NCBI GenBank assembly: GCA_026075535.2
Contig: AP026544.2
Coordinates: forward strand, 11,222,001 to 11,286,000
Length of the DNA: 64,000 nt
DNA from: Tricholoma matsutake
Lineage: Eukaryota; Basidiomycota; Agaricomycetes; Agaricales; Tricholomataceae
Direction of reading: 5' to 3'
Made by a program: the position numbers and the translations under genes. Below the pieces are notes generated by a model. It was given only the letters and a program-made list of their open reading frames with translations. It ran no database searches and was not told the DNA's origin. Position 1 is the stretch's first letter. The number at the start of each line of letters is the position of its first letter. Positions 8,127 to 54,854 of this stretch are shown piece by piece.

Positions 8127-8390
8127 GAGTACTTTACACTCCCCCACCTATTCCAGTTGGATTCTGGTTCATCTGGCTGGAATTTCTCAAATTTCTGGAG
8201 TCCAGTGGAATTTTTTTTGTATGTAGTTTTCCCTATGCAGCACAATTTCAGTCAGAATAAGGATCCAATTTACACCCAGAATCCCTGGAATCTGACCAGA
8301 CTCATCACAACCAGAATAACAGGAATAACCAGACTAACTGGACTAACTGGACTGCACATGCTTCCCCAAATAAAAGTTCAACATACAACA

Positions 8391-8455
8391 AGAATTGAAC
8401 CCTCAACCTTGGGTCTGCACACATAACAGCATGCTTAACCACTGAGCTACCAAGC
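8391..8455 (-). ncRNA. tRNA-like Pol III module M1 (copy A 5' end)
   Basis: On the minus strand an A-box-like TAGCTCAGTGG (8439-8449) lies about 36 bases before a B-box-like GGTTCAATTCT (ending near 8391). Spacing and sequence match the internal promoter of a tRNA gene. The stems do not pair well enough for a functional tRNA and there is no proper acceptor stem. Transcription would run outward to the element terminus. Near-identical modules occur in copies B and C and alone at 45593-45916. Confidence 0.75.
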
Positions 8456-8706
8456 AATTATTCTTCTACATACATTTAATACTTTTATTACCCAACCAAG
8501 GCACATAGTTAATCACAGCCATTAATGGAATAAATAATAAGTACGCATACATGCATGACACATGACACATGACTGCCAGCTCACAACCATCACCACCACC
8601 ATTGTCAATGCTGCCTCCTCCTCCTCTCCACTCTACCACCACCACTGTGTGCACACCCACCACCACCATTCCCATGCCCACTGCCACCATCACCACCACC
8701 TTCAAA

Positions 8707-9012
8707 TGAGCTGACTGGACAGAACATAGGCTGAAATGATGGCAACATCATTTGGGCCATAGATAAGTTTTTTTTCTTTTTTCTTTTTCTTTTTATCAAT
8801 CAACTAATTGTAATTTATTGCTTTTTAGGTTGTATACTACTGGGGATGACCTGCCACAATGAAAAATGTGAGCCGACTGGATGGAACATGGGCCCAAACA
8901 ATGGCAACATTGTTTGGGCCATAGATAAGTTTTTTTCTTTTTTCTTTTTCTTTTTATCAATCAACTAATTGTAATTTATTGCTTTTTGGGTTGTATACTA
9001 CTGGGGATGACC
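8707..9012 (+). repeat. Two tandem hairpin/intron-like cassettes in copy A
   Basis: Two copies of a unit of about 160 bases, each with a (GG)CCCAAACAATG...CATTGTTTGGG-type hairpin (8890-8920 is perfect) followed by TAAGTTTTTTT, a pyrimidine-rich stretch, CAACTAATTG and TTTTTAGG or TTTTTGGG. This is the decayed form of the intron cassettes still canonical in copies B, D and E. Confidence 0.7.
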
Positions 9013-9122
9013 TGCCATGATGAAAAATGTGCAACCCATGCCCATGCCCACCTGATCCACTCCTCCCCATTCAAATGGGATGTGAGGCTGTCGACACAGG
9101 CTAGGAGGGTGCAGAGGGATGC

Positions 9123-9487
9123 TATAAGGGCAACCTAAGCCTCTAGCAAAGGGAAATCCGAAGAGAAAACTCTAAGGATCCCTTTGCCGATGCCCAGTAT
9201 ATGTGAAGACGACAAAAATCAAATAATAACCTAAAAATAGAAAAGGCGGAGATAGGCAGATCAAGGCCACCAAATGACATCATACCAAGGGGTAGGTGTT
9301 GGAAGGGGTGCTCCACCTCTAAATATAAAAGTGTCAACATGTACAAACATGATAGCAAGGGAAAATTAGTAATAAAATCCAGAAAAATCATAGAAAATGA
9401 AGAATAGAAGGAAATGAAGTGAGGAAAAATATAGAACAAATGTAAAAAATAGGAGAAACACACAGGGCACCCCCTAGTCCCCTTACA
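9123..9487 (-). mobile_element. Solo LTR of the chromodomain gypsy family, in copy A
   Basis: Runs from TATAAGGGCAACC to CCCCTTACA and matches the 3' LTR at 58457-58882. It is flanked by the perfect 5-bp duplication GATGC (9118-9122 and 9488-9492). Copy B shows the same site without the insertion (AGAGGGATGCCAGGAGACCC). It is 365 bp because it lacks a 60-bp segment present in the other two LTRs. Open frames inside it are not genes. Confidence 0.92.
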
Positions 9488-9649
9488 GATGCCAGGAGAC
9501 CCCAGAAGGGGGGTACCTGCCTAGTAAGCACCCACCAACCTCTGTACTCGTGCCACATCACACTGATGTGCCCAACCCCCCCCCCCCAAAAAAAAAAGAA
9601 AAAAACCGAAATCCAAACAGGGGACGACAGCAACAAATGACAACAAGCA

Positions 9650-10130
9650 ACCCACCCCCAGCCTCATGAGCAACTGCTTGTGGGGTGGATCATGGGAGGA
9701 ATGATGCCCAGGTGCAGGGACAGGAGATGACAACAACACACCACCTGCCCCCAGCCTCATGAGCAACTGCTTGTGGGGTGGAACGTGGGTGGAATGACAC
9801 CCAGGTGCAGGGAGAGGAGACAACAACATGCCACCCACCCCTAGCCTCACAAGCAACTGCTCATGGGGTGGATCGCAGGTGGAATGACAACAATGACAAG
9901 CCACCCACCCCCAGCCTCACAAGCAACTGCTCATGGGGTGGAACATGGGTGGAACAATGCCCAGGTGCAGGGATAGGAGATGACAACACACCACCCACCC
10001 CCAGCCTCACAAGCAACTGCTAATGGGGTGGATCATGGGTGGAACAACAACAATGACAAGCCACCTACCCAGCCTCATGAGCAACTGCTCATGGGGTGGA
10101 TCGTGGGTGGAAGGACAGACAACAGCAGGG
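9650..10130. repeat. C-rich hairpin minisatellite of copy A
   Basis: About six monomers of 75-86 bases built around CCACCCACCCCCAGCCTCA, then (T/C)GAGCAACTGCTC or AAGCAACTGCTT, then GGGGTGGAT(C/T), then GGGTGGAA. Each monomer can fold on itself: an inner stem around loop AACT and an outer CCACCC/GGGTGG stem. Monomers alternate between two spacers, CAATGACAAG and CCAGGTGCAGGGA, giving a higher-order unit of about 160 bases. Long open frames on both strands arise from the repeat. Confidence 0.85.
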
Positions 10131-10132
10131 TC

Positions 10133-10405
10133 GCATCCCCTCCCCCTCCCCCACACTTTGTGTGGGGAGGGATTTCTTTTGTACTTTTCATTATTTATTA
10201 GTATTGTGCCCCCCCTCCCCCATTTTGCATGGGGGAGGGATTTTTTTCTTCATGTTTTTACCTCCCCCCTCATGTTCAGTGTGAGGGGTTAGCTTTTTAT
10301 GTATATAAATAAAACTCCCTCTCACATCTTGTGAGAGGGAGGATTTTTTGTTTATGTATATAATCACGATCATCCCCACTCCCTTGCATTCAATGTGAGG
10401 GATAA
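10133..10405 (+). other. Ladder of five stem-loops followed by T-runs (copy A)
   Basis: Five successive inverted repeats: CCTCCCCCACACTTTGTGTGGGG, CCCTCCCCCATTTTGCATGGG, CCCCTCATGTTCAGTGTGAGGGG, CTCCCTCTCACATCTTGTGAG and CCCTTGCATTCAATGTGAGGG, each about 55-65 bases apart and most followed by T-runs. The layout resembles a series of transcription terminators or a structured RNA 3' region. The same ladder occurs in copies B and C. Confidence 0.7.
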
Positions 10406-10473
10406 TTAAAAAAATTTGATCTTAACTACTTCAAAAAAAATTAGAGTGTCATGAAACTACTGACTAATAATTC

Positions 10474-10556
10474 TCCTGTGGCTCAACTGGTTAAGCACAC
10501 ATGTTTGGTTTGTCATGTGATCACTTTAATCAAGATGTCTTGAGTTCAATCCTTAC
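10474..10556 (+). ncRNA. tRNA-like Pol III module M2 (copy A 3' end)
   Basis: A-box-like TGGCTCAACTGG (10479-10490) and B-box-like GAGTTCAATCC (10542-10552) on the plus strand, pointing to the right terminus. The module is followed by about 200 bases of conserved tail and then the subterminal repeats. The same module is at 33961-34046, 35044-35130 (minus) and 53108-53190 (minus). Confidence 0.75.
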
Positions 10557-10755
10557 TCTGCACAAATATATTTTGTAGGCACTTTGACAACTTAAGACTT
10601 GAAATTTGACTATCCATTAGGGTATATACTCTAAGTTGAGCATCTGGAGTAACAAGAATCTGGTCAGAATAACCAGAATAACTGGACTCCGACTGGAATA
10701 ACTGGACTCCAATCGGAATAACTGGACTCTGACTGGAATAACTGGACTCCGACCA

Positions 10756-11583
10756 TAGTGTTTAAAGGTCCAGTCTGTAGGACTGAAAAAAAGACTGAAA
10801 CTGAACTGAACTGAACTGATTAGGACAGGACCAGTGGTCTATTTATGGACCGGTCTTTTTCAGTCCAGTTGCTGCTCTTTCGTTTTGAAAAATATAGTAA
10901 GACCGATGAAAAACTGGTTGCAACTGGTCTCTCGTTCCAACGTGTATTAGACCTTACTCCCACACATATTTCCTTTATTTTCGGTCCCTGGATCATCAAA
11001 AACGGTCAAGAGTTGGTTGAGATATGACCAAAAACATTTTTGTACAAGTATTTTGTTGTATCAGAACAACTTTGATTGCATTGCTTATTACCTGAGCTAT
11101 AATTTTTTTTGTACAGCTATATAGCATCATAAAAGTAGCAACAACACACCTAATCATCTGTACCATGGGATTTTATTTATACAACAGCCTAAATGAGTGC
11201 AACTACAAACTACAAATTACAAACTACAAACTGCAACTTGAATGCATGTCCTTTTGGTTTTGGCCATATCTCAGTCAAATCTTGACAGAATTGCTTAAAT
11301 GTTGGATTGGTCTACATAGCATTACAATCTCTATCCATTAATATAATATATATGAGGTGATGGTCATATTTGTTGAGATACATATGGGTTATTTGGCACA
11401 ATAAACTTTATGACAAAAACCCAGTCCAAACCAGTCTTTTTTCGGTCCATGGACTGATTAGGACCGGTCTTAAAGGGTCCGGTTGTGGTCCTCCAATATC
11501 TAGGTCGGTCCTAGACTGGTTGCGGTTGCTGGTTGCCCCATTTGGAAGTCAAAAACCGGACTGGACTGTACCTTTAAACACTA
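10756..11583. mobile_element. Nested non-autonomous hAT-like element (828 bp)
   Basis: Starts TAGTGTTTAAAGGTCCAGTC and ends GACTGTACCTTTAAACACTA: inverted termini of about 20 bases with the TAGNG start common in hAT elements. It is flanked by the perfect 8-bp duplication TCCGACCA (10748-10755 and 11584-11591) inside the subterminal repeats of copy A. The interior is non-coding, with several GACCGGTC-type inverted motifs near both ends. A truncated inverted relative is at 37722-38175. Confidence 0.88.
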
Positions 11584-11678
11584 TCCGACCAGAATAACTG
11601 GACTCCAACCAGAATAACTGGACTCCAACCGGAATAACTAAACTCTGAACAGAATAGGTGGGGGAGGGTAAATTACAG

Positions 11679-11865
11679 CCAAAAGCCACCAGTGTGCTCA
11701 GATTCCGCCTGTTGACCTGCCAAGCTGACCGGATTCAGATAAAGGCTCCCAGCCTGCTAAGACTAATGTGATGGCTTCAAGACCTATCTGAGGTGTAGCA
11801 GTGTCCTGAAAGCCACCAGCATGCTCAGATTGGCCCTTTGACCTGCCAGGCTGACCAGGTGAAAC
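11679..11865. repeat. Right half and second unit of the split tandem repeat
   Basis: Begins with the right target duplication CCAAAAGC and contains the second full unit of the flanking repeat. No gene recognised. Confidence 0.7.
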
Positions 11866-12347: not shown

Positions 12348-12354
12348 AAAAAGC

Positions 12355-24549: not shown

Positions 24550-25280
24550 TGGTTGTTATAATAGATACAGGGACATTACCTCACATTGTCTCACATTGTC
24601 TCACAGCTAATGTTTCTTAATGTATGAGAATGTGTAGATACTCATTTCACTTCATTGATAGATACTATTTCACATTAAATTACAAAATTGATATCTTATC
24701 CATAACCCTGCTGCTCCCCATCCTTCTATCCTATCCTGATGTCATTGCTACCCCAAACCACCCCCTACCATGCTGCCAATCACTAGCCTAGATGGTTGTT
24801 AGTTGCCCTAAAATGATCTAGTATGTGAATGTAAGTAGCTCAGACAGCTCAAATACTCACTAAGTATCTACCCCATATAGCACTTTTGTTTTGCTTGTCC
24901 AATTTGATAATTGACAAAGTGAATCAGAAATGGCTAAGGGAAGTCTGATGCAAAGGGATAGATACCTGGGCATTATGCAAATGGGAGGCCCTGATAGTAA
25001 GGAAAATGATAGTGCTGGCAGCGCAAGAACCTAAGGTAGTTGTTAAAATACATGAACAATGCATGATTGTGTGACATACCATAAGCGTGACAGCAATAGT
25101 GTCATGTTCCACCTGGAGTGCTGGAATGCCATGTTAGATCAATGTCATGGATCGATAGTGTGACATACGCATTCACTTTACTGCTGGCTATAGGCACTAC
25201 CCTCACTCAGAGAAGTGGCCCATGACTGAGAAACCACCAGTTACTTGCTGGAAGGCCAGGAAAGGTTAGACTGACTCTAC
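24550..25280. other. Stretch without recognisable gene
   Basis: Contains a CTCACATTGTCTCACATTGT patch at 24580-24605 resembling the interior of the CCCCAG element. Otherwise nothing identified. Confidence 0.35.
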
Positions 25281-25289
25281 AGATAGATA

Positions 25290-26881
25290 CAGTAGCTTAC
25301 AAAACTGTTACAATGTTTTGCATATTTGTATAGATCAGTCTATAAAATAGGAAATAAAATTTCAGAATTCTTAAAAATATTATGGAGCATACCTCAATAT
25401 CACAAGGGGTTGCCTGAAAAGTCTCAGGGTCATGTGACATTATTTTACAAGTTAAATAAACCATTTAATTCACTCACTCATTGTAACAGTTTTGTTGCAC
25501 TGATTTTTGGATATAAATTAGTACTTGGTATAGCCTCCTTTTGCTCTAACTACTGCTGCAAGTCTTCTAGGTAGGCTTTCAATCAATTTCTGACATCCCT
25601 CCTTTGGAATCTCCTCCCATTCCTTCTGAACCCTCTCCCAAAGCTCTCCAACACTGTTAGCAGGCTCCTCATATTCTCCAAGCCTTATTTTGAGGTGATT
25701 CCATAGATGTTCTATAGGATTTAGGTCTGGAGACTGTGCAGGCCACTTTAGGACAGTAATATCATTGTCCTCAAACCATTTCTTGGCCTTCTTACTGGTA
25801 TGCTTGGGGTCATTATCCTGTTGAAAGATAACATTATCAGTAGTTTTACCCCAATACCCCAGTGTTTTCTGAAGTTCATCCTCCATTATGCTGACATCAA
25901 GGTCAGCATCCATCCTTCCTTCAATCCTGGTAGCATATCCAATACCATCCCATCCCATGCACCCCCACATCATCAAATTTCCACCTCCAAACTTGACTGT
26001 TCCCTCAACCAATCTATCACTCAGACCTTCATCACTATCTTTACACACATATTTCCTTCCATCTGACCCCAACTGGTTAATTTTAGTTTCATCTGACCAT
26101 ATTATCCTTTTCCAATCCTCCAGTGTCCACTCAGCATGCCTCTCAGCAAACTCCAATTGTGCATGGCAGTGGTGAGGCTTGAGTAGGGGGCGTTTTTGCT
26201 TGATTACAGGGTTCATGCCTCATTTCTTGAGGTGGCAACGAAGTGTTTGGGAAGAGAAGGGGGTATTGGTGATATCCTGGAGTGTATGTGCTGCTTCAGT
26301 GGCATTCTCCACCTTTCCCATACAAATAATCTGCCTGGCATAGTCAACATTGGCAGTAGAAAGCTTAGTAGGTCAACCACCAGATGACTTTGGTTGGTAA
26401 GAACAGTGCTCAGAGTGAATGTGACTAATAGTAGTGGTGCTGAGACCAGTTTTATGAGCAATTGGGTGTACTGAAAGGCCAGCATCAAGAAGTTCAAGAA
26501 TATGAAGTGTTTGAGCAGAAGAGAGCTTGTGCATGATTGGTGGGGAGTTGGAATGAGATGCCAACTGGTGGAGAGCTCTTATATATACCTAGTCACATGA
26601 TATTGTTTGTAACTGTTTATAATAATCAACAAAATCATGTGATTTGCCCATATTTCTGACTAAAAAATCAGTGCAACAAAACTGTTACAATGAGTGACTG
26701 AATTAAGTGGTTTATTTAACTTATGAAATGATGTCACATGACCCTGAGACTTTTTAAGCAACCTCTTGTGATATTGAGGTATGCTCCATAGTATTTTTAA
26801 GAATTCTGAAATTTTATTTCCTATTTTATAGACTGATCTATACAAATATGCAAAACATTGTAACAGTTTTGTAAGCTACTG
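25290..26881 (-). mobile_element. Tc1-like element with long terminal inverted repeats
   Basis: A 1592-bp element starting CAGTAGCTTACAAAACTGTT and ending with its complement, flanked by TA on both sides (25288-25289, 26882-26883). The inverted repeats extend for roughly 225 bases (25290 to about 25512 against about 26655-26881) with few differences. It encodes one Tc1-type transposase on the minus strand. Confidence 0.93.
25518..26564 (-). pseudogene. Tc1 transposase (DD34E) with two in-frame TGA stops
   Basis: A 348-codon frame from MASHSNSPP at 26564 to 25518, close to the usual Tc1 length of 340-350. The N-terminal helix-turn-helix includes QTLHILELLDAGLSVHPIA. The catalytic residues are intact: Asp in IIWSDETKINQLGSDG, Asp in VIFQQDNDPKHTSKKA, and Glu in SPDLNPIEHLWNHLK exactly 34 residues after the second Asp. 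Two TGA stops interrupt the frame, at 26375-26373 (after PKSSGG) and 26222-26220 (before GMNPVIKQ). Both are single transitions from CGA, as expected from CpG decay. There is no frameshift, so the element died recently or from methylation damage alone. Confidence 0.9.
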
Positions 26882-27299
26882 TAACAATGTGCTTCATTCC
26901 CAGTCATATGCACTACACTTTCTGCCTAAAACTGCACCCTTGGAGAACTTGAATTGGAGAAGCACAGCTGTGCTTGTGTGTCATTTTATCAAGTTGACTC
27001 CATCCAAGAACGACATGCACTGGTGAAAATGGGACTTGGGTTGACATGTCATTTGGTTCATGCCATTTGATAGGGTGAAGACAGCCCATGAGGGTATGAG
27101 AAGAGGGTGGGGAGACTCAGAATAGTGACAAGCTGGACAAGGGAGAGATGCAATGACTTTCTCAAGGTTCAGATAAACATGACCAAATAGGAAGAAGTTG
27201 ACTTTCAGTTGACTTTCAGTGGGATTGATATCGATGATCAAGAAACCCAAAGTCACAAAGTCGGAAGAGTAAGTCGAAATTGATGTATATATCTCAATA

Positions 27300-30977: not shown

Positions 30978-31435
30978 CACAACAGGCAGGGCAAAACTTT
31001 CCCAGAGAGAAAATGTGGAGAAAATGTGGAGAAAATTACACCTTTTCATGTAGCAAACAAGTGAAGAAAAACTGGTGAAAATAGGTTATTTCTCTTTATT
31101 TTCTCTGCAATCTGCCTATGGGAAAATATATCATTTGTGTGAAGAGAAAAAAAGGGGAATCTGAAGTGAAAAGAACTTATTTCCTCTTGTTTTCCCCCTG
31201 ATTTTTTCCTAGGAAAAAAAAGTTATATTTCCTGCAAGAGCAAATCAGAAATCTCTGGAGAATACAAGTTATTTCTTACAAATTTTGGCCTAGAAAATTG
31301 CATGTGGAAAAGTGTAATTTTCTCCAGGTGAAAATCTGGCAAACATGAGGAGAAAATTACACTTTCCCACATGCAATTTTCTAGGCCAAAATTTGTAAGA
31401 AATAACTTGTTTTCTCCAGAGATTTCTGATTTGCT

Positions 31436-31443: not shown

Positions 31444-31708
31444 GAGTACTTTACACTCCCCCACCTATTCCAGTTGGATTCCAGTTTGTCTGGCCAGAAT
31501 TTCTGGAATTTCTGGAATCCAGTGGAATGTTTTTTGTATGTAGTTTTCCCTATGCAGCACAATTCTGATTGGAATAAGGATCCAATTTACACCCAGAATC
31601 CCCGGAATCTGACTGGACTCATCACAACCAGAATAACAGGAATAACAGGACTAACCAGAATAACCAGAATGCATGTGCTTTCCCAAGTAAATGTTCAACA
31701 CACATCAA

Positions 31709-31770
31709 GAATTGAACCCTCGACCTTGGGTCTGCACACAACCCAGCACACTTAACCACTGAGCTACCAA
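31709..31770 (-). ncRNA. tRNA-like module M1 (copy B)
   Basis: A box TAGCTCAGTGG (31756-31766) and B box GGGTTCAATTCT (about 31709-31721) on the minus strand, outward-pointing. Confidence 0.75.
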
Positions 31771-32059
31771 GTAATTATTCTTCTGTGTACATTTAATATT
31801 TTTATTACCCAACCAAGGTATGTAGTTAATCACAGCCATTAACACTTAATAACGGAATAATTAATAAGTATGCATACACATGACATGTGACATGTGACTG
31901 CCAGCTCACAACCACCACCACCACCACCACTGTCACCAATGCCGCCTCCTCCTCCTCTCCACTCCACCACCACCACTGCATGCGCACCCACCACCACTGT
32001 TCCCATGCCCACTGCCACCATCACCACCACCTTTAAATGAGCTGACTGGATGGAATGTG

Positions 32060-32600
32060 GACCCAAACGATGCAGATCGTGTTGTTTAGGGCCTAAGTAT
32101 GTTTTTTTTCACTTGCTTTTTGTTTTTTTATACTAACTAACTTGTTTCATCTGTTTTATAGGTTCTACTCTACTGCCAGACAGAACATGGGCCCAAATGA
32201 CGTGATTGGACAGAACACAGGCCCAAATGATGCAGATCATGTCATTTGGGCCCTAAGTAAGTTTTTTTTGTTTGCTTTTTGTTTTTATATACTAACTAAC
32301 TTGTTTCTTTTGTTTTATAGGTTCCCAGATGGAACAGGGGCACAAACAATGTGATTGGACAGAACACAGGCCCAAACAATGTAGATTGCATTGTTCGGGC
32401 CCTAAGGAAGTTTTTTTGTTTTGCTTTTTGTTTTTATAAACTAACTAACTTGTTTCTTTTGATTTATAGGTTCTACTCTACTGCCAGATGGAACACGGGC
32501 CCAAATGACGGCAATGTCGTTTGGGCCATAGATAAGTTTTTTTTCTTTTTTTCTTTTTCTTTTATCAATTAACTAATTGTAATTTATTGGTTTTTAGGTT
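32060..32600 (+). repeat. Tandem hairpin + intron-like cassettes (copy B)
   Basis: Intron-like units at 32097-32161 (GTATG...TATAG), 32257-32320 (GTAAGT...TATAG), about 32406-32469 (5' site mutated to GAAG) and a decayed fourth to about 32598. Each carries ACTAACTAAC, the fungal branch-point sequence doubled, about 25 bases before the TAG. Between them lie exon-like pieces with GAACA(C/T)(A/G)GGCCCAAA hairpins (32220-32252, 32369-32401, 32498-32526). Lengths of 64-65 bases are normal for basidiomycete introns. Confidence 0.75.
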
Positions 32601-32884
32601 GTATACTACTGGGGATGACCTGCCACAATGAAAAACGCGCAACCCATGCCCACGCCCACCCAATCCCCTCCTCCCCATTCAAATGGGATGTGAGGCTGTC
32701 GACATGGGCTAGGAGGGTGCAGAGGGATGCCAGGAGACCCTGGAAGGGGGGTACCTGCCTAGTAAGCACCCACCAACCTCTGTACTTGCGCCACATCGCA
32801 CTGACGCACCCAAACCCTCCCCCCCCCAAAATAAAAAATAAAAAAACAGAAATCCAGACAGGGGACAACAGTGACAAATGATGA

Positions 32885-33600
32885 CAAGCCACCCACCCCC
32901 AGCCTCACGAGCAACTGCTTGTGGGGTGGACCATGGGTGGAATGATGCCCAGGCACAGGGACAGGAGATGACAACAACACACCACCTGCCCCCAGCCTCA
33001 CGAGCAACTGCTTGTGGGCTGGCTTGCGGGTGGAATAACAATGACAACAAGCCACCCACCCCCAGCCTCACAAGCCACTGCTCGTGGGGTGGAACGTGGG
33101 TGGAACGACACCCAGGTGCAGGGATAGGAGACAACAATGCACCACCCGCCCCCAGCCTCACAAGCAACTGCTTGTGGGGTGGATTGTGGGTGGAATGACA
33201 ATGACAACAAGCCACCCACCCCCAGCCTCACAAGCAACTGCTCATGGGGTGGATTGTGGGTGGAACAATGCCTAGGTGCAGGGATAGGAGACAACAATGC
33301 ACCACCCGCCCCCAGCCTCACAAGCAACTGCTCATGGGGTGGATCACGGGTGGAATGACAATGACAACAAGCCACCCACCCCCAGCCTCACAAGCAACTG
33401 CTCATGGGGTGGATTGTGGGTGGAACAATGCCTAGGTGCAGGGATAGGAGACGACAATGCACCACCCACCCCCAGCCTCACAAGCAACTGCTCATGGGGT
33501 GGATCGTGGGTGGAATGACAATGACAACAAGCCACCTACCCACAGCCTCACGAGCAACTGCTCGTGGGGTGGATTGTGGGTGGAATGACTGACAACAGCG
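32885..33600. repeat. C-rich hairpin minisatellite (copy B)
   Basis: About nine monomers alternating in a 160-base higher-order unit. Stem variants include CACGAGC-AACT-GCTCGTG and CACAAGC-AACT-GCTTGTG, both perfectly paired. Confidence 0.88.
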
Positions 33601-33604
33601 GGGT

Positions 33605-33880
33605 TGCATCCCCTCCCCCTCCCCCGCACTTCATGTGGGGAGGGATTTTTTTTAGTACTTTTAATTATTTATCCATATTGTGCCCCCCCTCCACCATTTT
33701 GCATGGGGGAGGGATTTTTTCTTCATGTTTTTACCTCCCCCCTTGTGTTTGGCGTGAGGGGTTAGCTTTTTATGTACATAAATAAAACTCCCTCTTGCAT
33801 CTTGTGAGAGGGAGGATTTTTTGTTTATGTATATAATCACAATCATCCCCACTCCCTCGCATTCAATGTGAGGGATGTGG
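33605..33880 (+). other. Stem-loop ladder (copy B)
   Basis: Same five stem-loops as copy A. The first stem differs in its paired bases (GCACTTCATGT in place of ACACTTTGTGT). Confidence 0.7.
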
Positions 33881-33960
33881 TTAATTAAAAACATTTGATC
33901 TTTAACTACTTCGAAAAAAATTAGAGTGTCATGAATAAACATTATATTACTATCTAATAA

Positions 33961-34046
33961 TTCTCCTGTGGCTCAACTGGTTAAGCACACATGTTTGGTT
34001 TGTCATGTGATCACTCTAATCAAGATGTCTTGATTTCAATCCTTAC
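33961..34046 (+). ncRNA. tRNA-like module M2 (copy B)
   Basis: TGGCTCAACTGG and GATTTCAATCC boxes. The tail continues to the right terminus. Confidence 0.72.
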
Positions 34047-34477
34047 TCTGCACAAATATATTTTGTAGGCACTTTGACAACTTAAGACTTGAAATTTAAC
34101 TATCCATTAGGGTATATACTCTAAGTTGAGCATCTGGAGTAACCAGAATCTGGTTGGAATAACCGGAATAACTGGACTCCAACCAGAATAGGTGGGGGAG
34201 GGTAAATTACAGCTTGCAGGAAATATAACTTTTTTTTCCTAGGAAAAAATCAGGGGGAAATCAAGAGGAAATAGATTCTTTTCACTTCAGATTCCCCTTT
34301 TTTTCTCTTCACAAAAATGATATATTTTCCCTTAGGCAGATTGCAGAGAAAATAAAGAGAAAAGAATCTATTTTCACCAGTTTTTCTTTACTTGTTTGCT
34401 ACATGAAAAAGGGTAATTTTCTCCACATTTTCTCCACATTTTCTCTCTGGGAAAGTTTTGCCCTGCCTGTTGTGTGG

Positions 34478-34885: not shown

Positions 34886-35043
34886 CTGTAATTTACCCTC
34901 CCCCACCTATTCCAATCAGATTCCAGTTATTCCAGTTATTTCAACCAGATTCCAGTTACTCCAGATGCTCAACTTAGAGTATATACCCTAATGGATAGTC
35001 AAATTTCAAGTCTCAAAGTGCCTACAAAATATATTTGTGCAGA

Positions 35044-35130
35044 GTAAGGATTGAACTCAAGACATCTTGATGAGAGTGATCACATGACAAACCAAACATG
35101 TGTGCTTAATAAGTTGAGCCACAGGAGAAT
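35044..35130 (-). ncRNA. tRNA-like module M2 (copy C)
   Basis: Minus-strand GAGTTCAATCC and a partly mutated A box (GGCTCAACTTATTAAGCAC). Confidence 0.65.
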
Positions 35131-36571
35131 TATTAGTTAGTAATATAAGGTTTATTCATGACACTCAAACTCACAACTCTATTTTTTTTTCAAAGTAGTT
35201 AAGATTAAATGTTTTTAATTAACCACATCCCTCACATTGAATGCAAGGGAGTGGGGATGATTGTGATTAGTAATATACTACTACTACATACATAAACAAA
35301 AAATCCTCCTGCTCACAAGATGCAAGAGGGAGTTTTATTTATATACATAAAAAGCTAACCCCTCACACCAAATGTGAGGGCAGAGGTAAAAACACAAAAA
35401 AAAAATCCCTCCCCCACACAAAATGGGGGAGGGGGGGCACAATACTAATAAATAAAAGTACAAAAAAATCTGTCCCCATGCAAAGTGTGGGGGAGGGGGA
35501 GGGTCCACAACCCTGCTGTGCTAGGTGTGTTGTCTGTCATTCCACCCACAATCCACCCCATGAGCAGTTGCTTGTAAGGCTGGGGGTGGGTGGCTTGTCG
35601 TTGTTGTTGTTCCACCCATGATCCACCCCATGAGCAGTTGCTCGTGAGGCTGGGGGTGGGTGGTGCATTGTTGTCTCCTATCCCTGCACCTGGGTGTTGT
35701 TCCACCCATGTTCCACCCCATGAGCAGTTGCTTGTAAGGCTGGGGTGGGTGGCTTGTCATTGTTGTTGTTCCACCCATGATCCACCCCACAAGCAGTTGC
35801 TCATGAGGCTGGGGGTGGGTGGTGTGTCATCCTCATCTCCTATCCCTGCACCTGGGCATTGTTCCACCCACATTCTGCCCCACAAGCAGTTGCTCATGAG
35901 GCTGGGAATGGGTGGTGTGTTGTCATTCATTGCCATCATCCCCCATTTGGATTTCTTTTTTTTTTTTTTTGGGGGGGGGGGGTTGGGGCACATCAGTGCA
36001 ATGTGGCATGGTTGGTGGGTGCTTACTAGGCAGGTACCCCCTTCTGGGGTCTCCTGGCATCCCTCTGCACCCTGCTAGCCCATGTTGACAGCCTCACATC
36101 CCATTTGAATGAGGAGGAGGGGATTGGGTGGGCATGGGCATGGGTTGCACATTTTTCATTGTGGTAGGTCATCCCCAGTAGTATACAACCTAAAAAGCAA
36201 TAAAATACAATTAGTTGATTGATAAAACAAAAAGGCAAAAAAAGAAAAAAAAGAAAAACTTATCTATGGCCCAAACAACAGTTGCCATTGTTTGGACTTG
36301 TGTTCCATCCAGTCAGCTTGTTTGAAGGTGGTGGTGATGGTGGGAGTGGGCATGGGAGTGCTGGCAGTGGGTGCACATCCAGTGGTGGTGGTAGAGTGGA
36401 GAGGAGGAGGAGGCAGCATTGACAACAGTGGTGGTGGTTGTGAGCTGGCAGTCACATGTCATGTGTCATGCAATGCATGCAGCTATGCATATGGCTGGTT
36501 ACTACACCCTTAATTGGGTAATAAAGGTATTAAAGGGTAATAAAGGTATTGAATGTAGGTAGGAATAAATC

Positions 36572-36646
36572 CTTGGTAGATCAGTGGTTAAGCATGTTGT
36601 TCTGTGTGTAGACCCATGTAGACCCAAGGTCGAGTGTTCAATTCTT
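36572..36646 (+). ncRNA. tRNA-like module M1 (copy C)
   Basis: TGGTAGATCAGTGGTTAAGC followed by GTGTTCAATTCTT. The region between the boxes has a short duplication (GACCCATGTAGACCCA). Confidence 0.68.
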
Positions 36647-37326
36647 GCTGTATGTGAAACTTTTATTTGGGAAAGCACATGCATTCCGGTTGTAAATTGG
36701 ATCCTTATTCCAACTGGAATTGTCCTGCATAGGGAAAACTACATACAAAAAAAATTCCACTGGACTCCAGAAATTCCAGAAATTCCAGCTGGAATAACTG
36801 GAATCCAACCAGAATAGGTGGGGGAGTGTAATGTACTCCTCATCTGTACCCCATTTCTGAGCAACAACAGATTGCCAATAGGGCTAAAAGCCACAGACAC
36901 TATCAAAGGTAAGTATCATACTTCTAACTGGCTGCAAATTTATGCCATAGTAACATGGGTAGCAACAAACCTGAACTTCAAGATAGATGGCAATCAAAAT
37001 ACCATGGGAGGGCATTGCAAAACAAGTAAATTTCTTACTAAAGTCTAAACTAGATCTATCTTGATCTCATTCTAGTATGTCTATTGTAGTGTAGTGATTG
37101 GCATGGCGGTCTCTGCATCAGCATCTGTGAATGGCAAACCTTCATCTGAGCAAAGGTACATCTCCTTCAGTTCTTTCCAGCAACCCCTATATTCAAACTA
37201 CCATAGTAAAAATCTTCCCTACTGCTGCAAGAGATTTGCACAACTGTCCCTGAGTTTAATACACTCATCAATACACACCCACAAAATATGTTGACACTCT
37301 GTGGTCCACTTACTATGCATTTTCAG

Positions 37327-45592: not shown

Positions 45593-45916
45593 TGGTAGCT
45601 CAGTGGTAAGCATGCTGGTTTGTGTGCAGACCCAAGGTCAAGGGTTCAATTCTTGATGTGTGTTGAACTTTTACTTGGGAAAGCACGTGCATTCCCATTA
45701 TTCTGGTTAGTCCAGTTATTCCTGTTATTCTGGTTGTGATGAGTCTGGTCAGATTCCAGGGATTCTGGGTGTAAATTTCCAACTGGAATTGTGCTGCATA
45801 GGGAAAACTACATACAAAAAACATTCCACCAGATTCCAGAAATTCCAGAAATTCCAGAAATTCCAGCCAGACAAACCGGAATCCAACCAGAATAGGTGGG
45901 GGAGTGTAAAGTACTC
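45593..45916 (+). mobile_element. Free-standing M1 module: tRNA-like head plus TIR tail
   Basis: A 324-bp copy of just the 5' end module: TGGTAGCTCAGTGG at its start, GGTTCAATTCTTG, the conserved tail, and GTGGGGGAGTGTAAAGTACTC at its end. It begins exactly at the tRNA-like head. No target duplication and no poly-A were seen. Either a truncated element, a solo end left by deletion, or a SINE that shares its tail with the larger elements. Confidence 0.7.
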
Positions 45917-46731: not shown

Positions 46732-47922
46732 CAGTAATTTACACTCCCCCATATGTTCTGCGTGGACTGTGCAGACTCCATGCAGATCCATGCGGAGTCT
46801 GACCATGTGGTGACCAAAATGAAAAACTATACAACATTCGACATGGAATATGTGTTCATCCATGCAGAGTCCATGTTAGTCCATGTGGAGTCCGTGTTAG
46901 TCCGTGCGGAGTCCACATTAGTCCATGCAGAGTCTGCATTAGTCTGTGTCAGTCAGGGCAGAATCTGACCATGTGGTGACCAAAATGAAAATCAACAGTG
47001 TTGTATTTTACATGGACTTTACTGACTAGCTTACAGGTATGAGGGGAGGGCAACAATTATAAATAAAAAACAAAATTATAAATAGAAAACAAAAAAAAAC
47101 CCTCCCCACACAAAATGCAGGGGAGAGGGTTGTGATGTGGGTGTGTAATGCAGGTGTCATTGAGGGGCAGGGGTGGGTGCTGACACTGTTCATCATTGAC
47201 CACCTGTGATCCACCCTGCAAGCAGTGGCTCGCAGCAGTGGGGTGGGGTGCTCAGGTTGTCCTGGGCGGGTGGTGTGTTGTCCATCGCCATGGTTCCTGG
47301 TCACTCTCCTGTTCGTTGTCCCTGTGCTCTTGTACCCCATATCCACCCCATGAGCAGTTGCTCATGGCAGTAGTTGGGGGTGCTGTTCATCATGGGCCCC
47401 ATCAGCATTGTGCTGCTGCTCCTCATCGCCCTCGCCTCTCACACCCCATCTCCACCCCACGAGCAGTTGCTCACAGTGGTGGGAGGGGGTGCTGGTTGTC
47501 CTGGGTGTTGTTTCCTGGCCTCACCATTGTCGTCATCCTTGTCATCATCGTCCATCATGGTTGGCAGCCATGCTTTGCATTCTGGGGCTTCTGGGGCTGG
47601 TTGGCGGCATTGTTGTTGTTGTCGACTGCACACACTCATGATCCACCCTACAAGCAGAGGCTCACAGGCACAGAGTGGGTGTGTTGTCCATTTCAGAGGT
47701 CTCCTAATTTGGAGGGGTCAGTGACATGGCAGTGACATAGCATGTGAGGGGAGGTAGGTGGGTGCTTACCAGGTGGGTATCCTGCTTTGCAGGTCTCCCA
47801 GTGCCATCCTACCCCTTATTGAAAGCCTCACATCCCATTTGGATGGGGAGGAGGGTGTTGGCACAGGTGTTGTCAGGTCTGGGTTGTCTTGCATCAGTCC
47901 ATTGTTACCAGTAGATTAGAAC

Positions 47923-47990
47923 CTAGAAAACAAAAGAAACAAATCACTTAGTTTATAAAAACAAAAAGCAAATGGAAAAAAAATACTTAC
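47923..47990 (-). other. Intron-like cassette (copy D)
   Basis: On the minus strand, GTAAGTATTTTTTTT at 47990, a branch-like AACTAAG, and TTTTCTAG at 47923: 68 bases. The upstream exon ends with the hairpin GGGTCCAAACAATG...CATTGTTTGGGCCC. Confidence 0.68.
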
Positions 47991-48430
47991 CTAGGGCCCA
48001 AACAATGCAGATTGCATTGTTTGGACCCATGTTCCAGGTGGCATGCTTGTTTCCAGGGTTTGAGGCTGGTGCTAACAAAGAAAACAAAGAAAACAAAGAA
48101 AACAAAGAAATTAGTTAAATTGAATATGAGAGAATGAAAGAAAAAACTTACTGCACATGGTGGCTCATTTATGGCCACACATGGTGTTGCCAGCCCTGTG
48201 TTTGTCATCATGGGAGTTGGTGGATAGGGCATTGGAGTGGGGTTGGTGGGTGATGAAGTGGTGGTGGTGGGTGATGAAGTGGTGGTGGTGGTAAGAGAGG
48301 GAGGGAGCTGCCAGCATCAATGGTGGTGATGGTGAGTGATGAGCTGGCAATGTTGATGATGCAGCTGTGTGCTTTGTCATACTAAGCCAAACAGTCATAT
48401 GTAGTTGCATCAATAGCAACAACATACCAC

Positions 48431-48500
48431 TGGCTGTGTAGTGTAACAGTAATGTGCATCTGTATTTATTAGTTAATCATGAGGCTACAAGTTCAAACAC
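48431..48500 (+). ncRNA. tRNA-like module M4 (copy D)
   Basis: A-box-like TGTGTAGTGTAACAGTAATG and B-box-like AAGTTCAAACAC about 45 bases later. Points outward to the 48788 terminus. The sequence is unrelated to M1 and M2 beyond the boxes. Confidence 0.55.
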
Positions 48501-48977
48501 CATTTGTGACATTATTTTGCTAAGCTCAAATGGTCTGCTCAGATGCATGCGGACTGTCCTTGCTGGTCCAACCTGGTTGATCATGGACGCAGATGGACGA
48601 AATCCATGGAATCTGAGTAAAATATGCAGAATCTGTGTTGGTCTGCACAGATCCATGCAGACTGGCACACCCTGCTGCACAGCTAAAATGGTTTATTGTA
48701 TGGATTGCAAATCTGCACGGAGTCTGTGCAGAGTCCATGTAATTCCATGCAGATCCACACAGAATATATGGGGCAGTGTAAAGACCTCAACCAGTAACAT
48801 CCACATCGCAGGACTCCAAATATTATGTGGCATACAATGACCATGAGAGCAGCTAACTGTACAATGGGTTTCCCTGAACTGAACACACCTTGGAAATGGT
48901 GACCTAAAAGCATGGACAAGTTATGAGTTGCTCAAACTGACCAAAATCCCTTGATAATATACCTGAGTCATACTCCT

Positions 48978-49676
48978 TTACACCACAATTGAAATAATCT
49001 TCCACTTGAGAAACCACTCTTTGGGAGGGATGCTATAATTGAATAGAATAATTGGCCATGCAGTCTTGGTATGGCATTTGAAGGGACCAAAGCCATCTGC
49101 AGATAACCCAAGTGCAATGTCATGAGGATCAGAAAAGAACAACATTGGGAGCTCTTCATCACCAATCATGATGAATGTCTCTCTGAGTGAATGGTAATGA
49201 GTGCCATCAAAAATATTGGTTATCTTCATTGGGTCAGCTTCATGTTTGGACCAGCACTGCATTTTCATTGCATAGGAAGTACTCACAAGCATTGTGCAGA
49301 GATGGGGAATAATGGGAAGATACTCATAAATTGCCTGTGGTGTCATTCCATCGGCTTTATCGTGGTCAGTGTTGCATTTTGGGCATTTCTTGAGGGTTTC
49401 GTATGGGCCAGTGTAGCAGATGCATGAGGAGGGGCAACAATGACAGTGCATGGGCTGAAAACCAGAGAGAAACTGAACACATTTCTCTGTATTCTTCAGG
49501 GAGTCTATTGGAGCCTGAGGGAAAGTGAAGCAAAGTTTGTTGAATGCATTGTCAGTGAGATGTTCCTCAAGTTTGAGGGCATAGGCACACAGGAGGGTCA
49601 GGTCACATCCAGGATATTGCCATCTGTAAGGATGTTGGTCAGACATCGGTAAAGGTATGGATTGATGTGAACACAC
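48978..49676 (-). pseudogene. Second Tnp2-type transposase relic
   Basis: A 232-codon open frame with HCCPSSCICYTGPYETLKKC and CPKCN cysteine clusters, then YEYLPIIPHL, IFDGTHYHSLRE, FFSDPHDIALGLSADGFGPF and TAWPIILFNYSIPP. These are the characteristic blocks of fungal Tnp2-like (CACTA/Plavaka-group) transposases, including the DPxDIALGLSxDGF catalytic block. It is interrupted after KWKIISIVV near 48980, where the downstream catalytic domain should continue. Upstream (49680-50260) the frame is broken, but LPGNVHDQDCPLQAILEGDL (minus, about 50200) may be its N-terminal part. It differs from the relic at 45917-48900 and lies just upstream of it on the same strand. Confidence 0.7.
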
Positions 49677-51185: not shown

Positions 51186-51189
51186 TATG

Positions 51190-51754: not shown

Positions 51755-51830
51755 CAGTACTTTACAGTCCCCCACCTGTCCTAGTGGACTCCAACCAGAC
51801 TGACCAGAGTCCACTGGAGTCCAAGTGGAG

Positions 51831-53010
51831 TCTGAGTGGAGTCCAACTGGAGTCCGAGTGGAGTCCAACTGGAGTCCGAGTGGAGTCCAACTGGAGTCCG
51901 AGTGGAGTCCAACTGGAGTCCGAGTGGAGTCCAACTGGAGTCCGAGTGGAGTCCAACTGGAGTCCGAGTGGAGTCCAACTGGAGTCCGAGTGGAGTCCAA
52001 CTGGAGTCCGAGTGGAGTCCAACTGGAGTCCGAGTGGAGTCCAACTGGAGTCCGAGTGGAGTCCAACTGGAGTCCGAGTGGAGTCCAACTGGAGTCCGAG
52101 TGGAGTCCAACTGGAGTCCGAGTGGAGTCCAACTGGAGTCCGAGTGGAGTCCAACTGGAGTCCGAGTGGAGTCCAACTGGAGTCCGAGTGGAGTCCAACT
52201 GGAGTCCGAGTGGAGTCCAACTGGAGTCCGAGTGGAGTCCAACTGGAGTCCGAGTGGAGTCCAACTGGAGTCCGAGTGGAGTCCAACTGGAGTCCGAGTG
52301 GAGTCCAACTGGAGTCCGAGTGGAGTCCAACTGGAGTCCGAGTGGAGTCCAACTGGAGTCCGAGTGGAGTCCAACTGGAGTCCGAGTGGAGTCCAACTGG
52401 AGTCCGAGTGGAGTCCAACTGGAGTCCGAGTGGAGTCCAACTGGAGTCCGAGTGGAGTCCAACTGGAGTCCGAGTGGAGTCCAACTGGAGTCCGAGTGGA
52501 GTCCAACTGGAGTCCGAGTGGAGTCCAACTGGAGTCCGAGTGGAGTCCAACTGGAGTCCGAGTGGAGTCCAACTGGAGTCCGAGTGGAGTCCAACTGGAG
52601 TCCGAGTGGAGTCCAACTGGAGTCCGAGTGGAGTCCAACTGGAGTCCGAGTGGAGTCCAACTGGAGTCCGAGTGGAGTCCAACTGGAGTCCGAGTGGAGT
52701 CCAACTGGAGTCCGAGTGGAGTCCAACTGGAGTCCGAGTGGAGTCCAACTGGAGTCCGAGTGGAGTCCAACTGGAGTCCGAGTGGAGTCCAACTGGAGTC
52801 CGAGTGGAGTCCAACTGGAGTCCGAGTGGAGTCCAACTGGAGTCCGAGTGGAGTCCAACTGGAGTCCGAGTGGAGTCCAACTGGAGTCCGAGTGGAGTCC
52901 AACTGGAGTCCGAGTGGAGTCCAACTGGAGTCCGAGTGGAGTCCAACTGGAGTCCGAGTGGAGTCCAACTGGAGTCCGAGTGGAGTCCAACTGGAGTCCG
53001 AGTGGAGTCC
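51831..53010. repeat. Homogeneous 22-bp tandem array, about 53 copies
   Basis: Unit GGAGTCCAACTGGAGTCCGA plus GT, itself two 11-mers (GGAGTCCAACT and GGAGTCCGAGT). By eye all internal units are identical; only the first ones vary (GGAGTCCAAGT, GGAGTCTGAGT). The unit is the TGGACTCC subterminal motif of the family, amplified. It is open in most frames because 22 is not a multiple of three and the unit lacks stops, so the open frames of 396-509 codons here are artefacts. Confidence 0.97.
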
Positions 53011-53107
53011 AAGTGCAACCAAATGATAAGTCAATTAGATATGAGCTCAAAGGACTTTGGACTTGGTGAATTTCAAAAAGTACCTGCAAAATAAATTTGT
53101 GTACTGC

Positions 53108-53190
53108 ACAAATTGAACTCAAGACCTCACCATAAGGAATCACATGACAAACCAAACAAGTGTGCTCAACCACTTGAGCCACAGGAGATT
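53108..53190 (-). ncRNA. tRNA-like module M2 (copy E)
   Basis: Minus strand: CTCCTGTGGCTCAAGTGGTT then GAGTTCAATTTG. Points outward to the 51755 terminus, through the 22-bp array. Confidence 0.7.
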
Positions 53191-54261
53191 TATTGGGGAT
53201 CAATATAAGGTTTATTTATGACTCAACTTTTCATATTCTTCGAGGAGGTATTTTTCAAACAATTAAGATCAAAAAAATTTAATTAACCACATCCCTCACG
53301 TTCAGCGTGAGGGGGGGATTCGTAAGTACTACAATATATATACCCCTCGCATTCAGTGTGAGGGGGGGGCAGAGATAAATTAAAAATAATAAAGACCCCT
53401 CCCCATGCAAAATGCAGGGGAGGGGGGGTTGGGGGATGTGGTCTGGGGTGGGTGTTGTCGCCCACCCCTCCTCACATGCATCTGTCGCCATAGCAAGCCA
53501 CACCCATCATCCACCCTACAAGCAGAGGCTCGTAGGCATGGGGATGGGTGCCATGGTTGTCGTAGCCCTGGTCTACCCGCCATCCACCCAATGAGCAGAT
53601 GCTCATTGGCATGGGGTGGGTGTGTTGTCAGTTTTGCAGGTCTCCTAGTTTGGAGGGGTTGGGGGGAGGGGTCAGTGATGTGGCATGCGAGGGAGGGGGT
53701 AGGTGGGTGCTTATCAGGTGGGTATCCTGCTCCACAGGTCTCCTGTTACCCCTCTGCCATCTCCTACCCTTTATTGACACCCTCACATCCTGTTTGGATG
53801 GGGAGGAGGGGGCTGGCACAGGTGTCATCAGGTCTGGGTTGATCCCCATCGTTCCATGTTGGCATTGGTGTTGCCCTGTTGTCATTCGCCATTGTCACCT
53901 CCATTCCACCCGTCATCCACCCCCCGAGCAGTTGCTCAAGGGGCTGGAGGCGGGTGGTGTGTTGTTGGCCCCATTGCTTCGCATTCTGGGGGTCCTGGTG
54001 ACACTCACGATCCACCCTATGAGCAGGGGCTCGCAGGCATGGGGTGGGTGTGTGGGGTTGTCTCGCGTCCGGCCGTCGGTCATTACCAGTAGAGTAGAAC
54101 CTACAAAACAAAAGAAACAAGTTAGTTAGTTTATAAAAACAAAAAGCAAATGAAAAAAAACTTATGTAGGACCCAAACAATGTGATCTGCGTCGTTTGGG
54201 TCCGCATTCCATCCAGTCGGCTTGTTTGTGGGTGGTGGTGTCGTTACCAGTAGATTATAAC

Positions 54262-54326
54262 CTAGAAAACTAAAGAAACTGGTTAGTTAGTTTATAAAAA
54301 CAAAAAGCAAACAAAAAAAAACTTAC
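54262..54326 (-). other. Canonical intron cassette (copy E)
   Basis: Minus strand: GCTAG then GTAAGTTTTTTTTTG, AACTAACTAACC branch region, TTTTCTAG, then GTTATAATCTACTGG: 65 bases. The sister cassette at 54164-54101 has lost the donor GT (ATAAG). Confidence 0.72.
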
Positions 54327-54580
54327 CTAGCGTCATTTGGGCCCGCGTTCCATCCATTCGGCTCGTTTGCAGGTGGTGGTGATGGCGGATTGGGCATGGG
54401 AGCGGTGGCAGTGGGTGTCCATGCAGTGGTGGTGGTGGTAGAGAAAGGAGGGAGGGAGGTGGCATCGACGGTGGTGGTGGTGGTGAGTGATGAGCTGGCA
54501 CATTTGATGATGCAGCAATATGCTTTGTCATACACAGCTGCACCATGGTACCTAATGCAAGTAGATGATGCCTTACACAA

Positions 54581-54658
54581 GGTACTGTGGCGTAATGGTT
54601 ATATTGTGCATCATGATTGATTACATAAGCAACCTACGGAGATCTGGGTTCAATTCCT
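54581..54658 (+). ncRNA. tRNA-like module M3 (copy E 5' end)
   Basis: A-box-like TGTGGCGTAATGGTTATATT and B-box-like GGGTTCAATTCC, followed immediately by a T-run (TTTTTTT). The best tRNA-like promoter of the set; outward to the 54854 terminus. Confidence 0.75.
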
Positions 54659-54854
54659 TTTTTTACACACTTTTTCAGCGGAATCCAACTGGACTCCACT
54701 GGACCAGTCCGGTCGGACTGGACTGGGACTGGACTGGCAACTTTGCAGGCAGTTGGCTGGTGACCAGTCCCAGTGGACTCCAGTCGGACTCTGGTCAGTC
54801 CGGTCGGACTCCAGTTGGAGTCCACTAGGAAAGGTGGGGGAGTGTAAAGACCTC

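Follow-up and report, generated by a model that had tools for sequence, protein, structure and literature searches.

Five non-coding elements, A to E, form a real family in the window (the whole stretch of 64,000 nucleotides analysed here, from chromosome 7 of Tricholoma matsutake), which confirms an earlier observation. We consider it likely, with a probability of roughly 0.8, that they are non-autonomous, move by cut-and-paste and are mobilised in trans by the protein of coding relatives, most likely CxC5/CxC6. The family would move by a cut-and-paste route leaving 8-bp target duplications; A to E would be recognised in trans through the ends they share, i.e. a common terminal block and the subterminal repeats GGAGTCC/GGAATCC; and the recognising protein would be made by longer relatives with the same ends.

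The boundaries, the target duplications and the empty sites were directly observed. The end pattern given in the initial annotation has 10 matches in the window (at most 3 mismatches) against 0.07 expected: A, B, C and E account for two each, one at either end, D for one at its left end, and the tenth is an end that had not been listed; the right end of D, outside these 10 matches, was read directly from the sequence. A (8127..11678, minus strand), with its GAG-type end on the left and its CAG-type end on the right, B (31444..34212, minus strand) and C (34886..36838, plus strand, in the orientation opposite to A and B) are of type 1; D (46732..48788) and E (51755..54854), both on the plus strand, have the CAG-type end on the left and the GAG-type end on the right. 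The internal order is common to the five, D and E being in opposite orientation to A and B, which supports the earlier claim that this order is conserved while the subfamilies diverge. The boundaries stated earlier hold for A, B, D and E, and the 8-bp duplications announced for four of the five copies are there: 7/8 for A (CCAAAAGT at 8119-8126 and CCAAAAGC at 11679-11686), 8/8 on both sides for B (CTTGCAGG), D (AACCAGTA) and E (TGAGGCCT), and 0/8 for C. The unlisted end, a match on the minus strand at 45897-45916, is the single GAG-type end of a sixth, truncated copy on the plus strand (45596..45916, left limit approximate). E contains a 22-bp x 54.9 array (51807..53012, without assigned strand) that is an expansion of the GGAGTCC subterminal repeat, and D adjoins a reading frame (48978-49676) with a sub-threshold match to Transposase_21.

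For B, D and E, uninterrupted empty sites match the 8-bp duplications; A has a partial one only. That of B is at 31290-31171 in the window itself, minus strand (120/120 bases at 96.7%). D has nine matches, of which five run through 200/200 bp without interruption at 94-97%, a sixth crosses the junction (1-171), and the remainder are its own two halves and one partial match. Of the 36 matches for E, 31 cross the junction, two are its own halves and three stop short of it; for A the only site is a diverged one, 82% over 84 bases. As previously stated, no transposase was found in any copy: the Pfam scan of 11 of the 12 overlapping reading frames of at least 150 aa gave only repeat-driven DUF5340/DUF6470 scores on the 22-bp array of E, and tblastn of seven partner-type proteins against A to E gave no match better than E 0.42.

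The first description gave the family a single form of terminus. This stands for a block common to both sides, TTTACACTCCCCC with small changes, and not for one 20-mer, each element having two kinds of end: one CAG-type (CAGTAC, CAGTAA, CTGTAA or GTAAAC) and one GAG-type (GAGGTC or GAGTAC). Genome-wide the end pattern has 2,609 matches (at most 2 mismatches) versus 25 for the reversed pattern, and the four exact end strings occur 941, 700, 354 and 168 times, their reversed controls 0. The pairing of the ends is equally a direct observation: a facing CAG end lies within 4 kb for 59 of the 100 GAG ends listed (C1:0-12.3 Mb), the shuffled mean being 1.6 and the maximum 6, and among these listed ends the median spacing of CAG-GAG pairs is 2,089 bp. 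Copies elsewhere in the genome have the same end points and are flanked by 8-bp duplications, at least 7/8 in 11 of 15 non-coding elements (12 of 15 if one L075 end is moved by one base), a level reached by chance in 0.064% of random window 8-mers; none is seen at C, at L082 and at L069_2, the second element of L069/L070. B-type right ends have copies at up to 98% identity and D-type ones at up to 91%, hence fairly recent. The constant 8-bp duplications, the empty sites, the absence of transposase and the existence of a coding relative make A to E non-autonomous TIR DNA transposons. Two long end-pair candidates were discarded: C1:17345318-17356385 holds two separate elements, and C1:5229393-5237612 nested gypsy-like sequence. 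No family could be assigned convincingly to the reading frames of L071 and L076.

CxC5 genes were observed in fixed position and orientation inside these same ends. The 6,272-bp element C1:10674842-10681113 has both exact ends and a 7/8 target duplication (TTTAAAGT/TTTAAAGC, of the form TTTAAAG(T/C)); it matches the non-coding element L073 at 91% identity over its left 128 bp, and L077 at 97% over its right 59 bp. Its gene matches CxC5 at E 1.8e-30 and CxC6 at E 5.9e-6 (26.9 bits, just under the cut-off of 27.5), both domains being above cut-off in three relatives. An autonomous relative with the same ends had been envisaged: a coding relative exists, but the gene of this copy, the one read in detail, is broken by in-frame stops. 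A to E have only the ends in common with it and keep no remnant of its protein. When 118 CxC5 places from C1-C10 were compared with 335 exact CAG-type ends among the matches listed (the first 100 for each pattern, mostly on C1), six of the 118 genes were found 1,568-2,182 bp inside such an end, all pointing to it, against 0 in the other three geometries at 1.4-2.4 kb and a permuted mean of 0.143 (maximum 2 in 2,000), with a distance range fixed after five of the six cases had been seen. Besides the 6,272-bp element, the coding loci are C1:10385663, 10684365, 13873487 and 17498685 and C5:12599480. Further CxC5-end pairs occur within 8 kb of a CAGTA end, among the ends listed: in three the CxC5 gene is outside, in one it is inside at 2,528 bp and directed away from the end, and in one, at 4,469 bp, it is directed towards the end. 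The C-terminal part of the CxC5/CxC6 protein has conserved acidic residues and, in a low-confidence model, an RNase H-like strand order, so that this cysteine-cluster protein is our predicted transposase. Fold searches with two low-confidence models (Foldseek, VIA) gave no significant match, and the APOBEC and LacI rows were not accepted as a relationship.

The CxC5/CxC6 protein could instead be an accessory DNA-binding protein, a true KDZ enzyme (PF18758) encoded elsewhere acting in trans; we hold this for rather unlikely, even though Pfam describes CxC5/CxC6 as associated with KDZ transposases, KDZ genes are abundant in the matsutake genome (165 matches) and both Zisupton and Cryptococcus KDZ1 reportedly leave 8-bp duplications (PMC12730594, PMC12810828). 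Indeed 3 of 150 KDZ places lie within 12 kb of the 100 zero-mismatch ends listed, no excess over the 2.2 expected; eight pairs of related KDZ loci have shared-sequence borders, which are perhaps not element ends, without such an end; a near-exact adjacent end occurs at one of 30 KDZ loci (L023) and faces away; and in the oyster mushroom intact KDZ genes are reported to accompany CxC2 and never CxC5/CxC6 (PMC7641404). The KDZ catalytic domain PF18758 was found in 0 of 3 proteins scanned and 0 of 120 listed relatives, Pfam KDZ has no match in the C-terminal part of the broken coding copy, and profile comparison of the CxC5/CxC6 protein with KDZ proteins showed no similarity (probability 0.5%). 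Since this catalytic domain is undetectable in them, the CxC5/CxC6 elements, although their protein family is named after KDZ, may be a separate transposon lineage. A weak match in L023, with 3 mismatches to a degenerate pattern, does face the KDZ domain of that locus and could be due to chance.

A hAT transposase mobilising the elements, with the CxC5 genes as passengers, would fit the 8-bp duplications, the short ends and the abundance of hAT genes (151 matches); it is nevertheless very unlikely, as the readable hAT ends, those of the L044 group excepted, have other sequences (TAGTG..., TAGTATCC..., TAAGG...) and none of 108 hAT places lies within 12 kb of the 100 ends listed, versus 1.6 expected. 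A terminus near that of the family occurs at two of 30 loci (L060, 3 mismatches; L061, 2 mismatches), facing away from the hAT gene in both, and that of L061 looks like an insertion in a hAT copy, L044 having this site empty. No hAT transposase lies inside these ends in the 30 loci fetched with 1.5-kb flanks, the ends of the L044 group being unread. More broadly, hAT and KDZ (PF18758) were rejected as the source after a scan of 60 loci with 1.5 kb on each side, in which, the weak L023 match apart, no transposase lies within exact or near-exact ends; these flanks are short, so that the scan is weak evidence. It is also very unlikely that nested insertions or segmental duplications, and not one element, produced the CxC5-end association. 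Nesting is common, with gypsy-like reading frames recognised by eye in L078, L080 and L083, and three CxC5 places of C2, about 6 kb outside CTGTAA ends, resemble copies of one segment; yet the six cases agree in distance and orientation with 0 in the other three classes, and the full 6,272-bp copy carries a 7/8 duplication. The interpretation of the initial annotation, a non-autonomous DNA transposon family of the hAT, KDZ/Zisupton, P or Merlin classes, is partly supported: the non-autonomous family, its boundaries and its 8-bp duplications hold, but the class list does so only in part, the coding relative carrying a CxC5/CxC6 protein without detectable KDZ catalytic domain and the readable hAT ends being different.

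Besides the sixth end and the existence of two kinds of end, the initial annotation had overlooked outward Pol III-like units, which lie near 23 of 29 ends and consist of an A box, a B box and mostly a T-run. Nineteen of the 23 score above nearly all shuffles; the other four (scores 13-15) also arise in shuffles. At GAG ends they are found in A (8391..8449, minus strand; A box 8/8, B box 9, a T4 run 15 nt downstream), in B (31708..31766, minus strand; A box 8, B box 9, no T4 run within 40 nt), in C (36585..36645, plus strand; score 15) and in the sixth copy (45596-45653, outward from the end at 45897-45916). E has one at 54588..54657 (plus strand; A box 8, B box 10, T7 directly after), and B a weaker one at its CAG end (33969..34043, plus strand; score 15), whose B box is without GTTC and fails the strict filter. 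This stricter B-box filter was adopted because the first A/B-box scan caught GGAGTCC repeats at two CAG ends (L072, L077); as it accepts B boxes only at 150-420 bp from the end, a range set after earlier results, the positions of the units are partly imposed. They were rejected as tRNA genes: ARAGORN called none in the window or in 21 loci, Rfam gave no tRNA match but only weak ones, many to microRNA families and all under gathering scores, and the T-stem, judged by eye, is poorly paired, which points to promoter-like units. We would tentatively suggest, while thinking it somewhat doubtful, that CxC5/CxC6 proteins are predicted transposases of a superfamily distinct from KDZ, in whose elements, coding or not, a Pol III-type unit composed of an A box, a B box and a T-run terminator would lie near the ends and be read outward; as subfamilies would differ in the tRNA-like sequence that has taken its place, this unit would probably be under selection, e.g. 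for a small end-specific RNA or for open ends that the transposase could bind.

Unclassified repeats make up 25.4% of the matsutake genome (PMC10211490), and the present elements may put a name on part of this fraction, to which they would belong. The widespread fungal CxC5/CxC6 gene family, previously "associated with KDZ" in Pfam and tied to a Copia retrotransposon in the oyster mushroom, gains a candidate transposon with ends and target duplications; this puzzling family thereby gets a likely job, that of a protein which probably moves abundant non-coding elements. If the Pol III-like units are functional, they would tie the ends of DNA transposons to Pol III in an unusual way that is open to direct testing.

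Ac/Ds of maize is a hAT family of plants. As in our elements, the ends of the heterogeneous non-autonomous Ds, and a part of their subterminal repeats, are also those of the autonomous element (PMC3260210). In a basidiomycete, Marasmius oreades, the non-autonomous families MarorhAT-4/10/11/12 likewise share TIRs with one autonomous element, but this has a hAT transposase and the non-autonomous members are 597-631 bp long; the passages describing them mention no Pol III-like parts (PMC9674265). The megB1 element of matsutake was considered and dropped, being described as Alu-like (PMC10627285). Fungal KDZ elements (Kyakuja-Dileera-Zisupton) resemble ours by their CxC cysteine clusters and, in some members, by 8-bp duplications, and differ in that PF18758 and any profile similarity to KDZ are absent from the CxC5/CxC6 proteins examined; two Kyakuja families of Laccaria are described with 7-bp duplications and without TIRs (PMC12730594). 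The nearest parallel comes from Pleurotus ostreatus, where a 6,792-bp insertion containing a 739-aa CxC5/CxC6 gene broke MSH4 in a sporeless strain (Lavrijssen et al. 2020, PMC7641404), indicating that such DNA moves in another species. Its authors tied it to Copia retrotransposons, with no KDZ nearby in their account of the locus. It is similar to the coding copy in size, in its one CxC5/CxC6 gene, in its insertion into a gene, in the multicopy nature of CxC5/CxC6 regions in the genome and in its internal short direct repeats (PMC7641404). The main text of that paper is, however, without the terms "inverted repeat", "target site" and "TIR", whereas in matsutake the relatives are bounded by defined ends and 8-bp duplications and come with many non-coding derivatives.

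The non-coding elements A (8127-11678), B (31444-34212), C (34886-36838), D (46732-48788) and E (51755-54854) lie on Tricholoma matsutake chromosome 7 (C7, 12,297,795 bases; window C7:11222001-11286000) and form a real, abundant family of non-autonomous DNA transposons. Allowing no more than 3 mismatches, their end pattern CAGTANTTTACNCTCCCCCA occurs at 10 places in the window, against 0.07 expected; a sixth end, at 45897-45916 (minus), is part of a truncated copy. The initial annotation gave 8-bp target duplications to four copies, and we find 7/8 identical bases for A and 8/8 for B, D and E; no flanking 8-bp duplication was found for C. For B the empty site is inside the window, in the opposite arm of a fold-back repeat (31089-31238 and 34213-34362) that B has split. 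For D, five of nine matches are uninterrupted 200-bp paralogous empty sites (94-97% identity), for E the junction is spanned by 31 of 36 matches, and for A there is only a diverged, partial one. The duplications of A, B, D and E and the empty sites of B, D and E thus bear out the boundaries and the 8-bp size. At B's fold-back repeat, Rfam matches to microRNA families fell below the gathering scores and were taken as spurious. In line with the initial annotation, no transposase was found in the copies: of 12 reading frames of at least 150 aa overlapping A-E, the 11 scanned (all but 51836-53026, in E's array) match no transposase family, and tblastn with seven proteins against A-E detected no remnant.

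Every element has two kinds of end, a CAG-type (starting CAGTAC, CAGTAA, CTGTAA or GTAAAC) and a GAG-type (GAGGTC or GAGTAC), both continuing into TTTACACTCCCCC or a near variant. A, B and C make up one subfamily, D and E separate ones; D and E are oriented opposite to A and B. Short GGAGTCC/GGAATCC repeats internal to the ends have grown in E into a 22-bp array of 54.9 copies. By eye, all five elements also contain intron-like repeated stretches (GTAAGT ... CTAAC ... TAG or variants; repeat family D17 and others) at 32010-32620, 54080-54330, 47900-48000, 36160-36260 and 8770-9030, with no obvious protein, close to a palindrome of the form GGGCCCAAACAATG..CATTGTTTGGGCCC or a decayed version. 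Within the elements, hairpin-like units rich in G+C (CCACCC..CATGAGCAGTTGCTCATGGGG..GGGTGG; repeat families D2 and D4) form arrays at 9640-10120, 32880-33600, 35530-35930, 47190-47500 and 53490-54060. Nested in A is an 827-bp element (10757-11583) with, by eye, inverted ends TAGTGTTTAAAGG and an 8-bp duplication TCCGACCA at 10749-10756 and 11584-11591, which we take from its ends to be hAT-like.

In the 161,040,721 bases of the genome (13 contigs), exact end strings are numerous: 941 matches for GAGGTCTTTACACTCCCCC, 700 for CAGTACTTTACA(C/G)TCCCCC, 354 for CTGTAATTTACCCTCCCCC and 168 for GTAAACTTT(G/T)CACTCCCCC, each reversed control giving 0. The last three strings total 1,222 CAG-type ends, so that the genome probably contains more than a thousand copies, counting truncated and coding ones. 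A facing CAG end lies less than 4 kb from 59 of the 100 listed GAG ends (C1, 0-12.3 Mb), at a median of 2,089 bp, versus a mean of 1.6 and a maximum of 6 with shuffled CAG ends. Twelve right ends from elsewhere led to eight complete elements; adding A-E and two in loci L069/L070 gives 15. Duplications of at least 7/8 flank 11 of these, or 12 when L075 is allowed a one-base shift at its end; L071, L076, L078 and L080 are left out, as no far end could be located for them. The best matches reach 98% identity for the right end of B (40 of 1,581 candidates scored) and 91% for that of D (40 of 1,180). The initial annotation held the family to be old but still spreading; by these identities, some subfamilies spread fairly recently.

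Other mobile DNA is present too. The window contains a Gypsy-type retrotransposon with chromodomain and gag (58894-63911, minus), and a DDE_3 transposase-like frame (25518-26216, minus) between inverted repeats 25280-25508 and 26663-26891 is another DNA transposon. By eye, L078 and L080 have gypsy-like reading frames inside. At C8:6510031-6513228 (L061) a family copy is apparently inserted in a hAT element, locus L044 being empty there (one side compared).

A coding relative with the same ends, as envisaged initially, was found among GAG and CAG ends facing each other more than 4 kb apart. This 6,272-bp element (C1:10674842-10681113), flanked by duplications TTTAAAGT/TTTAAAGC, carries a gene with in-frame stops whose product has a CxC5 domain (E 1.8e-30), then CxC6 (E 5.9e-6, slightly below cut-off) and a C-terminal part in which the motifs CIDKAC, VDxYHY and ACEQLN occur. 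The element shares its left 128 bp with non-coding copy L073 at 91% identity and its right 59 bp with non-coding copy L077 at 97%. Upstream of the gene, a 176-aa frame (ORF C1:10677520-10678047, in L084, C1:10676800-10679800), followed by a lysine-rich stretch, is possibly a second gene of the element; none of its 18 relatives has a Pfam domain. One of the 18 may lie on the same contig as the top CxC5/CxC6 relative, since the longest contig given for each has 3,303 bases.

We compared 118 CxC5 places (C1-C10) with 335 exact CAG ends (among those listed, 195 CAGTA, 100 CTGTAA and, on C1, 40 GTAAAC). Six of the 118 genes lie 1,568-2,182 bp inside a CAG end and are directed at it, in a distance range chosen once five of the six were known; the other three combinations of side and orientation at 1.4-2.4 kb have none, and random placement gave a mean of 0.143 and a maximum of 2 (2,000 trials). 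Five of these ends are CAGTA and one CTGTAA, the kind of end seen in A, B and C. Further pairs of a CxC5 gene and a CAGTA end within 8 kb have the gene outside (three), inside at 2,528 bp, beside a D-type copy and directed away (one), or at 4,469 bp and directed at the end (one). Near 100 zero-mismatch ends, there is no excess of KDZ places (3 of 150 entered, 2.2 expected) or hAT places (0 of 108, 1.6 expected). The coding partner of the family is very probably a CxC5/CxC6 element.

A search with the CxC5/CxC6 protein yielded 650 relatives. Each of the 120 listed combines CxC5 with CxC6 and lacks the KDZ catalytic domain PF18758, and direct scans of three confirmed both points. Profile comparison with 30 KDZ proteins revealed no relation. 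Across 60 aligned proteins D599 (60/60), D627 (60/60) and E554 (59/60) are conserved, and E680 occurs in 28 of the 33 having a residue there, several relatives ending just short of it. The models have an RNase H-like order of strands and helices at low confidence (mean pLDDT 67.7 and 60.4) and fold searches gave no significant match, so that we infer a putative transposase from gene position and residue conservation.

The most unusual part of the family is a putative outward Pol III-like unit. Only four sites in the 64-kb window have both an A box scoring 8/8 and a B box scoring 8 or more, all in element ends and directed outward. When the terminal 600 bp of each end were mononucleotide-shuffled (1,800 shuffles), 0.44% scored 16 and none 17; read inward, complete elements scored at most 15, the 700-bp truncated copy being excluded because its two test stretches overlap. 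A stricter scan (B box with GTTC core, 150-420 bp from the end) of 29 ends, from 14 non-coding elements plus one end of the coding copy, found an outward unit in 23, of which 19 score at least 16 and four 13-15; the A box lies 236-419 bp from the end. None was found in the CAG ends of A, B, D and E or the GAG ends of L073 and L074. In 22 of these units four or more consecutive T start no further than 30 nt from the B box, versus 13.5% of random same-end stretches. As the copies are related, the 23 units are not independent; they stem from some five subfamilies and from the coding copy. Sequence differences of the GAG-end units among subfamilies suggest replacement with function retained; by ARAGORN, the units do not fold as tRNAs.

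MSH4 of the oyster mushroom is disrupted by a 6,792-bp insert whose CxC5/CxC6 gene encodes 739 aa; its authors (PMC7641404) found no KDZ at the expected distance from such genes and proposed a Copia link. Among the papers listed for CxC5 or CxC6, only PMC7641404 and PMC12568894 concern fungi, going by title; among those listed on megB1, matsutake TIRs, KDZ MITEs and Pol III parts in DNA transposons, none matches this family by title and start of abstract. Three matsutake genome papers do not mention KDZ, and two of the three also lack 'terminal inverted' and 'MITE'. As first supposed, the family is undescribed in the literature searched; it is akin to known kinds of transposon.
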